Assembly (NCBI GenBank): GCA_012960975.1
Contig: DUAE01000033.1
Span: forward strand, 43,337-107,336
DNA from: Candidatus Poseidoniales archaeon
GTDB lineage: Archaea > Thermoplasmatota > Poseidoniia > Poseidoniales > Thalassarchaeaceae
Length of the DNA stretch: 64,000 bases
Reading direction: 5' to 3'
This document shows, one piece after another, positions 42,184-45,728 of this stretch; positions within the stretch are counted from its first letter, which is position 1, and each line of letters opens with the position of its first letter. The notes beneath the pieces were generated by a model. That model searched no databases. It was not told the origin of the DNA and saw nothing but the letters and a program-made list of their open reading frames with translations. Position numbers and translations under genes: made by a program.

Positions 42184-43494
42184 ATGGTTCTTTACACGCC
42201 AGGGCGCACAACTAAATATTCATCAAAAAACATTGATTCAGGAATCCAATTTCATTTTCTCGGTGGGGGAAACGAAGTTGGGAATGTTGGGTGTGTTATT
42301 GAAGATTCAACCGGCACAAGATTGTTGATTGATTATGGATTAGCCCCAACTCGCCCCCCAAAATATCCGGACGAATGCCCCCCAATTTCTGACGCCATAA
42401 TCACCCATAGCCACATTGATCATATTGGAATGGCCCCCTGGCTAACCCAACATCAAAATATTCGTTTGCATGGAACAAGTCTAACTGCAGATGTATCTGA
42501 AATAATGTGGCGTGATACGTATAAAGTTTCAAGCATTGAAGGCTATCCATTAGCTTGGGATAAACGAGATATGGAATATGCCCTAGATTCTTGGTATCCC
42601 CATGAATACGGAGAATGGTTCAAGGTGGGCGCGTGGAAATGCCGATTGCATCGAGCGGGCCACTTACCTGGCGCGGCTATGGTAGAAATCAAAACCCCAA
42701 CTCATAGTATCCTTTGGTCAGGTGATATTGACACTCGAGACAGCCCGAATACCCTTGGGGCAATTCCTGTGGAATGTGACATACTTTGTTTGGAGGGGAC
42801 CTATGGAGGAAGAGAGCACCCTGACCGCCCCAAAGAAGAGCAAAAGTTAGTCCAAAAAGTGCTTGATATCGTTGGAAAAAGGGGGGTTGCCCTAATTCCA
42901 GCCTTTGCATCGGGGCGGGGCCAAGACATCCTCATGATTTTGCATCAATATGCCCCCCACCTCAATGTCCATTTTGATGGAATGGGGACGAGAATTACTT
43001 CACATTGGTTCGACAATCCACAACATATTCGTGATCCGAACCGACTCAAAGACATGTGGAGATGGGTTAAGCGTGTTTCTGGTAAATCAGATAGGAAAAA
43101 GGCGCTTACTGCGGATGTAATTGTAACCACGAGTGGGATGTTGGATGGAGGGCCAGCGTTGTGGTATCTCAATAGGTTGCGGCACGATCTTTCCAATGAA
43201 ATTTTATTGACGGGGTATCAAGCAGAAGGGTCGGGCGGACGGAAGCTTCTAGACGAGGGAAAAATCAATATTTTCCGCAATCTTATTCAAATAGACTTAG
43301 AGATCACCCGATTTCAACTTTCTAATCATGCGGGCCACAGTGAATTGTGTAATTTTGCAAGAGAATGTAAGCCAAAACACCTAATTCTTTTCCATGCTCC
43401 TGATGAAGGCCGAAATGATATTTTTTCCGAATTAAGTGAAGAAATGGAGACCCATCTTCCAGTTAATGGAAGGCCAATACAAATAGACCCCTGA
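42184..43494 (+). CDS. Metallo-beta-lactamase / beta-CASP RNase
   Basis: FHFLGGGNEVGNVG, THSHIDHIGM, RAGHLPGAAMVEI, SGDIDTRD, IPAFASGRGQDI, TTSGMLDGGPALWYL, HAGHSEL. Confidence 0.93.
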   Translation: MVLYTPGRTTKYSSKNIDSGIQFHFLGGGNEVGNVGCVIEDSTGTRLLIDYGLAPTRPPKYPDECPPISDAIITHSHIDHIGMAPWLTQHQNIRLHGTSLTADVSEIMWRDTYKVSSIEGYPLAWDKRDMEYALDSWYPHEYGEWFKVGAWKCRLHRAGHLPGAAMVEIKTPTHSILWSGDIDTRDSPNTLGAIPVECDILCLEGTYGGREHPDRPKEEQKLVQKVLDIVGKRGVALIPAFASGRGQDILMILHQYAPHLNVHFDGMGTRITSHWFDNPQHIRDPNRLKDMWRWVKRVSGKSDRKKALTADVIVTTSGMLDGGPALWYLNRLRHDLSNEILLTGYQAEGSGGRKLLDEGKINIFRNLIQIDLEITRFQLSNHAGHSELCNFARECKPKHLILFHAPDEGRNDIFSELSEEMETHLPVNGRPIQIDP

Positions 43495-43584
43495 TTTCTT
43501 TCTTCAGTGAAATTCATAGGCTTTGTGTGTTAACGCTCGCGTATACGGTAGACGCCGTGTAAAGGAAATACAGGTGAAAAAAAT

Positions 43585-45039
43585 ATGGAAGCATTAGACA
43601 AACAATTTGGAATAACAGAAGCAGGAAGCACGGTTGAGGGAGAAATTCGAGCGGGAATAACGACATTTTTGACGATGGCGTATATTTTGATAGTCAATCC
43701 TTCAATGCTGAGTCTTTTCGGTCAGACAGGAATACCATTTGACGACGCATTATTTGCAACAGCAGTTGCTGCCTTCGTTGGGTGTGTTGTTATGGGATTA
43801 TGGGCAAACTTGCCCTTCGCACTCGCGCCGGGTATGGGGCTAAACGCCTACTTTACTTTCGCGGTGGTTCTGGGTATGGGAATACCTTGGGACGTTGCCC
43901 TAGCGGCAGTCTTGGTGGAGGGGGTAATTTTCCTAATCATCTCGCTACCTCAAGTAGGTTGGAGAACAATAATGATTAATTCTATTCCCACTGATCTAAA
44001 AATCGCTACCGGCGCAGGAATTGGAATGTTCCTTGCAATAATTGGATTGCGAGAAATGGGTTGGATTCAAGACGACGGGGCAACTCTCGTAAATCTTGCA
44101 AATACCGATGCCTTTACTTATGAACATGGTGCATTTATTGCAATGGTATGTTTAATTTTAACAACCATTTTGATAGCACGCGGTCAAAAAGGAGCAATAA
44201 TCATTGGAATTGCAATAGCTTCAATTTGGGGCTGGGCAACTAAAGCTTACGATCCATACAATGATTTCGTAGCAGGCGGACCTGGATTCTCCACCTCTCA
44301 AGCACATTGGCCAGACATAACAGCTGTAGGATTCGTAGGATTGCCTAGTGAAACAATGGGTGCTGCATTAGGTGCCCTCGGAGACGTAGGGGCCGACGGA
44401 GGAACAACCCTTGGCATGTTCTTGATGGTAATGATAACTTTCCTTTTCGTTGATATATTCGATACAGCAGGAACATTATACTCTGTAGGCCGCCAAGCTG
44501 GCTACGTTAACGAAAACGATGAGTTGATGAACTCTGACGAGGCGTTCATGTCCGATGCTGCTGCAACAATAGTTGGAGCACTTACTGGTACTAGCACAAC
44601 AACAACTTACATTGAGTCAGTTGCTGGTGTAGAAGAGGGTGGTAAGACTGGATTGACCGCAGTTACTGTTGGTGTACTAATGCTAACAGGACTATTCTTT
44701 TCGGATCTTTTCCAGGCCATACCAACCTTTGCTGCTGCACTTGCACTAGTCGTGATTGGTGCAATGATGATGCGCCAAGCCGCAGATATCGATTGGAATG
44801 ACAAGGAAATGGCGTTACCGGCTTTCCTAACGATGGTCTTGATGCCTTTCACATACTCAATCGCAGATGGTATCGCATGGGGAATTATTGCTTATGTTGC
44901 AATCAAGATTGGTATGGGCAAGTGGGATGAGCTAAATCCTGTAATGTGGGCACTATTCGTCTTGATGGCTATGTTCTACCTGGGCCCCGGTGACCAAAAC
45001 ACCTTCAATTACTTGTTCGGACTTGTCGGACTTAATTGA
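43585..45039 (+). CDS. NCS2-like AzgA-family purine (adenine/guanine/hypoxanthine) permease
   Basis: EIRAGITTFLTMAYILIVNPSML, ALAPGMGLNAYFTF, DIFDTAGTLYSVGRQAG, TGTSTTTTYIESVAGVEEGGKTG. Confidence 0.94.
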   Translation: MEALDKQFGITEAGSTVEGEIRAGITTFLTMAYILIVNPSMLSLFGQTGIPFDDALFATAVAAFVGCVVMGLWANLPFALAPGMGLNAYFTFAVVLGMGIPWDVALAAVLVEGVIFLIISLPQVGWRTIMINSIPTDLKIATGAGIGMFLAIIGLREMGWIQDDGATLVNLANTDAFTYEHGAFIAMVCLILTTILIARGQKGAIIIGIAIASIWGWATKAYDPYNDFVAGGPGFSTSQAHWPDITAVGFVGLPSETMGAALGALGDVGADGGTTLGMFLMVMITFLFVDIFDTAGTLYSVGRQAGYVNENDELMNSDEAFMSDAAATIVGALTGTSTTTTYIESVAGVEEGGKTGLTAVTVGVLMLTGLFFSDLFQAIPTFAAALALVVIGAMMMRQAADIDWNDKEMALPAFLTMVLMPFTYSIADGIAWGIIAYVAIKIGMGKWDELNPVMWALFVLMAMFYLGPGDQNTFNYLFGLVGLN

Positions 45040-45055
45040 GTAGAAATTACGTAAA

Positions 45056-45097
45056 CGGCACCTCGGCTGAACGGTCAGCCTGAAAGCCGAGGTGTCG
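45056..45097 (+). promoter_or_regulatory. Strong inverted repeat / RNA hairpin between purine permease and apt
   Basis: CGGCACCTCGGCT (45056-45068) pairs with AGCCGAGGTGTCG (45085-45097), 13 bp with one G-U, 16-nt loop. Confidence 0.8.
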
Positions 45098-45116
45098 CCA
45101 CAAGGGGGCGTTCAGT

Positions 45117-45659
45117 ATGTTAGATGAATTCACTAAACGCCTACGAGACACAGTTCGAACAATTCCAGATTTCCCTATCGAGGGCATTCAGTTTCGGGAC
45201 ATAACACCAGTATTATCTAATGGTAAATTACTCTCAGAAATCACAGATCGCTTTGTCAAGGAGATGAAGGAACGAAATTGGCAACCCGATGTGGTAGTTG
45301 GTCCAGAATCTCGTGGATTCATCTTCGGGGCACTTTTGGCGGCAAAATTAGGAATAGCTTTTGTGCCGGTAAGAAAGCCCGGTAAACTCCCTCACGCAAT
45401 AATTCGAGAGGAATATTCATTGGAATATGGGACCAATGTTATAGAAATTCATAAAGACGCAATAACACCTGGCCAAAAAGTCGTGATCATTGATGATTTA
45501 CTCGCTACTGGGGGCACAGTTCGTGCATGCCATCGGCTTTGCAATCGATTAGATGCAAACATACTCGGAAACTTATTTGTCATCGAATTAGAAGGCCTCG
45601 GTGGCTCAGAAAGCTTGGATCCCACCGAGTCGATTTCTTTGATAAAATTCCCAGCATAG
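45117..45659 (+). CDS. apt: Adenine phosphoribosyltransferase
   Basis: IPDFPIEGIQFRDITPVL, VVGPESRGFIFGALLA, RKPGKLPHA, VVIIDDLLATGGTVRA. Confidence 0.94.
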   Translation: MLDEFTKRLRDTVRTIPDFPIEGIQFRDITPVLSNGKLLSEITDRFVKEMKERNWQPDVVVGPESRGFIFGALLAAKLGIAFVPVRKPGKLPHAIIREEYSLEYGTNVIEIHKDAITPGQKVVIIDDLLATGGTVRACHRLCNRLDANILGNLFVIELEGLGGSESLDPTESISLIKFPA

Positions 45660-45728
45660 TATTTTGTAATTGATAACAGAACCCCGATTCTTTCAAAGGG
45701 GTCTCTGCTTTCCCAATAGAAGATAACA

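Follow-up and report, generated by a model that had tools for sequence, protein, structure and literature searches.

Organization of the permease–apt locus

The window analyzed here is a 64,000-nt stretch of contig DUAE01000033.1, which belongs to a draft genome of 59 contigs from Ca. Thalassarchaeaceae (Marine Group IIb, MGIIb; order Poseidoniales). One of the genes nearby encodes an archaeal geranylgeranylglyceryl phosphate synthase. At the locus of interest, a purine-related permease gene and apt are arranged in tandem and are separated by a gap of 77 nt (45040–45116). The following features were assigned:

43505–43520, + strand: promoter-like motif of the permease, CAGTGAAATTCATAGG (comparison with the nearest relative, G011, and the genome motif)
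43585–45039, + strand: NCS2-type xanthine/uracil permease, the upstream cistron (open reading frame; Pfam PF00860, E = 3.5e-33)
45049–45054, + strand: ACGTAA box, 9 nt past the permease stop codon and immediately 5′ of the stem (leader comparison)
45056–45097, + strand: main hairpin, with stem 45056–45068/45085–45097 and loop 45069–45084 (folding, comparison with G011, recurrence)
45065–45080, + strand: alternative hairpin GGCTGA-ACGG-TCAGCC, not significantly populated (pair probability 0.0003–0.0009)
45072–45087, + strand: weak match to the promoter-like motif in the hairpin loop, 37 nt before the apt ATG; a lead only
45104–45108, + strand: G-run, the likely Shine-Dalgarno sequence of apt (GGAGCG in most relatives; sequence comparison)
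45117–45659, + strand: apt, adenine phosphoribosyltransferase (NCBIfam TIGR01090, 209.5 bits against a cut-off of 185.85)

The permease adjoins apt in eight of the nine genera that hold both genes, and the order in many relatives is beta-CASP protein, NCS2 permease, apt, a small protein with a zinc-ribbon-like C-terminus, TauE, and MoeA. The beta-CASP gene (42184–43494), which immediately precedes the permease gene in most relatives, encodes a protein with a partial, below-cut-off match to aCPSF1 (TIGR03675); it is a possible RNA-processing enzyme encoded beside an RNA element. The gap between this gene and the permease is unusually conserved, with 4 differences to G011 in 90 positions (95.6% identical), and its 43524–43584 portion includes ATTCATAGG, which is promoter-like, together with the small hairpin ACGGTAGACGCCGT. 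A ATTCATAGG-like motif and a downstream GGTGA...ATG are also present in many relatives. On the other side of apt, in the gap that precedes the zinc-ribbon gene, the CCCCGATTCTTTCAAAGG motif (45684–45699) is very conserved across genera. This site, which ranks second among 213 upstream regions for the promoter-like motif of the genome, probably serves the zinc-ribbon gene as its promoter. Finally, permease alleles have seemingly been swapped between genera (L037 of genome G071 relative to L035 and L036), with the resident hairpin and apt staying in place, which suggests recombination that ended near the permease stop codon.

A stable hairpin follows the permease stop codon

The stem of the main hairpin begins 16 nt past the permease stop codon. 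As originally predicted, its arms, CGGCACCTCGGCT (45056–45068) and AGCCGAGGTGTCG (45085–45097), form 13 base pairs that include one G-U pair and enclose a 16-nt loop. A 49-nt segment containing the hairpin folds with −27.6 kcal/mol (z = −4.8), a value that was equalled by 0 of 200 shuffled sequences. The stem score of 33.5 exceeds that of the runner-up within the window (28.5), none of the first-order Markov shuffles of the window reach a score of 30, and in 433 kb of its own genome, which contain 142 post-stop gaps, the hairpin is tied for the top position. The highest-scoring hairpin of the 139 kb scanned first (37.5) is located inside an open reading frame (L146:13216–13267). The gap also contains the smaller CGCC/GGCG pairing that had been described before apt (45096–45099 with 45107–45110), which shares positions with the base of the main stem and with the G-run that is the likely Shine-Dalgarno sequence.

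The GGCTGA-ACGG-TCAGCC hairpin had been described as a helix that would disrupt the main stem. It is present in the sequence, but it is a poor competitor: its equilibrium pair probability is below 0.001, whereas the main stem reaches about 1.0, and the best structure that contains it is 4.7 kcal/mol worse. With −9.4 kcal/mol, this helix could form only transiently, before the 3′ arm of the main stem is made, and it is confined to the window genome (G000) and G011.

Pairing is conserved while stem sequences diverge

To evaluate conservation, the gap was compared with that of G011. Only 2 of its 77 positions differ, with 0 differences in the box, the 5′ flank, and the hairpin, as compared to about 40% of fourfold sites (93 of 232 in the permease and 32 of 78 in apt). 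Other pairs show similar contrasts; L016 and L019, for example, have 4 differences in a 72-nt gap relative to 95 at 237 fourfold sites. At greater distance, a post-stop hairpin is found in eight of nine genera with differing stem sequences. When genus g8 is left out, a hairpin is present at p ≤ 0.05 in 58 of 67 leaders, and the stems are unrelated (for example, CGGCACCTCGGCT, CTCTCGGGCC, and GAGCATTATGGTCTGA); among the g4 leaders, five of ten reach this level and the other half have only weak stems. Genus g8 retains the permease–apt adjacency and lacks the hairpin, which indicates that the hairpin is dispensable. An alignment that comprises 19 sequences and was fitted to the model has 98% paired cells, relative to 95.1% in shuffled alignments, and three double-changed pairs, relative to 0.5 in shuffles; these counts lean toward structure because of the fitting and are dominated by GC-rich members. 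The stem is thus kept in close relatives with compensation, in line with the structured RNA element of the original prediction, and the hairpin is clearly a real, selectively conserved RNA structure.

This pattern also bears on whether the inverted repeat might act as DNA, in the form of a binding site for a transcription regulator. The window does contain a palindrome, TTACGTAA, but it is lost in relatives, where ACRYAA alone is kept, and the stem sequence varies freely with retention of pairing. Moreover, the gene that follows the permease in genus g3 is a different one and is about 200–300 nt away. A DNA site is accordingly regarded as extremely unlikely.

The loops range from 3 to 19 nt, with most of 3–6 nt, and many are UUCG, UACG, or GAAA tetraloops. 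The replacement of the loop by tetraloops indicates that stability, rather than loop identity, is kept. A subgroup consisting of g10, one g4 member, and one g7 member shares CGGcAuAGCCUGAA in the loop, and the window, from genus g1, has a related form (CGGuCAGCCUGAA). In the window and in loci L128–L213 of its genome, a promoter-like motif, CGnnnnaTT[CG]A[AT], which is unlike the classical TTTATATA box, peaks 20–40 nt before start codons. The loop could be read as the core of an apt promoter (CGG..AGCCTGAA), with the apt transcript starting 3′ of the hairpin. Consistent with this reading, the loop motifs of the subgroup and the window are mostly 37–38 nt before the start codon (44 in one case), within the preferred distance of the genome motif. 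The match is, however, of median strength (its score of 6.7 ranks 94th among 213, with p of about 0.07–0.11 per leader), the motif is unenriched over all leaders (z = 1.1), and most of the loops, being 3–6 nt, lack it. A promoter in the loop is for these reasons improbable.

The ACGTAA box, which lies between the stop codon and the stem, has the consensus ACRYAA across genera and is conserved in most of them. Across the 433 kb of the genome, ACGTAA is present in a single one of the 142 post-stop gaps, namely the permease–apt gap. This box may mark a cleavage site or a protein-binding site. As a promoter it fits the motif of its own genome poorly (scores of −16 to −2). A basal helix between CGU of the box and an ACG before the Shine-Dalgarno sequence, although conspicuous in some leaders, was also rejected, as it is found in 12 of 40 cases relative to 11.2 expected (permutation p = 0.43); a wider arm-pairing score of 692, relative to 631 for shuffled sequences (sd 18), ignores relatedness and is not taken as a claim of a basal helix.

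The element belongs to the permease 3′ end

Genus g3, in which the permease and apt are found on separate contigs, reveals which gene the hairpin accompanies. Here, the permease stop codon is followed by the box (ACACAA or ACACAC) and the hairpin, and the next co-directional gene is some 200–300 nt away; apt instead lies a short distance behind another gene, with leaders of roughly 15–30 nt and no hairpin. A covariance model, R1, that was built from nine sequences of g3, g4, g9, and g10, and from none of the window genus g1, matches 23 of 148 family genomes once apiece. Permease 3′ ends account for 21 of these matches; the remaining two, which are the weakest (E of 0.04–0.09), are located elsewhere. 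R1 remains below threshold in the window's own genome, where the stem has diverged, so the window is included on the strength of its position, box, and hairpin. None of the 148 family genomes has a credible second site, and no other purine gene carries the element. In the sister family, at locus L191, the order is apt–permease, and it is the permease that is followed by a 12-bp hairpin and TCCTCTTTTCC. The element is an element of the permease 3′ end and not of apt.

This assignment is difficult to reconcile with the original proposal of a ligand-sensing riboswitch or attenuator that controls apt by mutually exclusive helices. The proposal draws on the location between two purine-salvage genes, on the possibility that the alternative helix forms in nascent RNA until the 3′ arm has been transcribed, and on the strong primary-sequence conservation between G000 and G011. 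Yet the element tracks the permease, and apt without a permease upstream has no hairpin; there is no conserved aptamer core, tetraloops replace the loops, and the competing helix is absent in relatives other than G011 and negligible at equilibrium. Searches of the window and eight relatives against Rfam, at gathering and permissive thresholds, returned nothing relevant, and nothing on Poseidoniales riboswitches or promoters was found in the literature searched. The element shares a purine transport and salvage neighbourhood with the purine-family, NMT1 (xanthine), PreQ1, and PRPP riboswitches (via Rfam) but differs from them in having neither an Rfam match nor a core, in following the permease rather than forming a 5′ leader, and in occurring at one site per genome. 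The riboswitch reading is disfavoured and highly unlikely.

U-runs and termination

No U-run follows the stem in the window, as had been noted; CCACAAGGGGGC stands 3′ of it. The hairpin is thereby distinguished from a canonical intrinsic terminator, in which a U-run comes at once after a GC-rich hairpin, in agreement with the original view that an ordinary terminator is less likely, and scans of 139 kb and 433 kb ruled out a generic terminator of this genome. Among relatives, TTTT within 14 nt of the stem is present in four of seven g3 permeases, which have no apt downstream and in which the hairpin and U-tract combination is thus found, as compared to 1 of 60 operon copies (Fisher p = 2e-4). 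This distribution is as expected for a 3′-end structure in which the U-tract is avoided where apt needs read-through.

The main rival to the explanation proposed below is that of a partial terminator or attenuator, at which RNA polymerase would release in some passages and so lower apt without ligand control. Several g3 genomes have a stem followed by TTTTT or TTTTTTTT, the sister-family permease at L191, located after apt, ends in a hairpin and TCCTCTTTTCC, and in the window genome itself a 16-bp hairpin followed by TTTTTTT lies 3′ of a 1638-aa open reading frame (L207, about position 573, minus strand), an arrangement that resembles a bacterial-style terminator in this archaeon. In contrast, of the 60 leaders that precede apt, 59 lack the U-tract, and characterized archaeal terminators depend on U-tracts without a strict need for a hairpin (PMC8716108); some read-through would also still be required for apt. 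Relative to the U-tract- and aCPSF1-dependent archaeal terminators (PMC8716108), the element shares its position at the 3′ end of a transcription unit, and some apt-less permease copies have U-runs, but the window and nearly all operon copies lack the U-tract and the hairpin here is strong. Partial termination is, on this evidence, somewhat unlikely.

A candidate decay barrier in the permease–apt operon

The explanation that is tentatively favoured, with confidence just short of even, is that of an intercistronic hairpin at the 3′ end of the permease cistron, which would serve as a decay barrier and raise permease over apt within a permease–apt operon. RNA polymerase is proposed to read through the hairpin into apt, because most leaders lack a significant promoter match and a G-run resembling a Shine-Dalgarno sequence is retained before apt. 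Once the transcript had been cleaved within the gap, or had partly terminated there, the hairpin would bar 3′-to-5′ decay, and the permease message would stay stable and abundant with the apt message lower. Whether the hairpin acts as a barrier or through partial termination, the step from a conserved structure to differential expression is an inference. In bacteria, intercistronic hairpins of the malE-malF and puf operons shield the upstream cistron from 3′-5′ decay and give unequal stoichiometry (PMC5927463). As in malE-malF (REP) and puf (PMC5927463), the upstream member of two operon genes is followed, directly past its stop codon, by a stable hairpin without a U-tract, and read-through is needed; the upstream cistron is more abundant than the next in those systems, and a corresponding excess of permease over apt is proposed here. 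Unlike them, the present element is archaeal, occurs in a single copy, has a conserved ACRYAA box on its 5′ side, and has a putative protective role. A REP-like repeat was rejected, as there is a single match in its own genome. Protective intercistronic hairpins are established in bacteria, and no archaeal precedent was found in the literature searched.

For MGIIb archaea in the coastal ocean, PMC9723583 reports the xanthine/uracil permease as one of the family-specific, highly transcribed genes (top 5%) of Thalassarchaeaceae MAGs. In its main text apt is unnamed, and this absence is the sole basis for suggesting low apt expression. Counting against a decay barrier, the loop and flanks are near-invariant between G000 and G011, a degree of conservation beyond what an element acting purely through stability would need. 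There is also a quite unlikely reading in which the ACRYAA box and the hairpin would form a new archaeal cis-acting RNA processing or stability signal, with the box read by a specific protein and the permease expression ratio set by it, or in which, for the subgroup with the loop motif, a promoter would be nested in the hairpin and the structure would exist on read-through transcripts only.

The element is ordinary in kind, and the sources searched apparently contain no description of it for this lineage. It also illustrates that, when a hairpin is found between purine genes, synteny breaks should be used to assign it before a riboswitch is named. As a 3′-end element, it offers a specific candidate means by which an uncultured archaeon might express a permease well above its operon partner apt, and, if true, would extend hairpin-governed differential operon expression to the MGIIb lineage.
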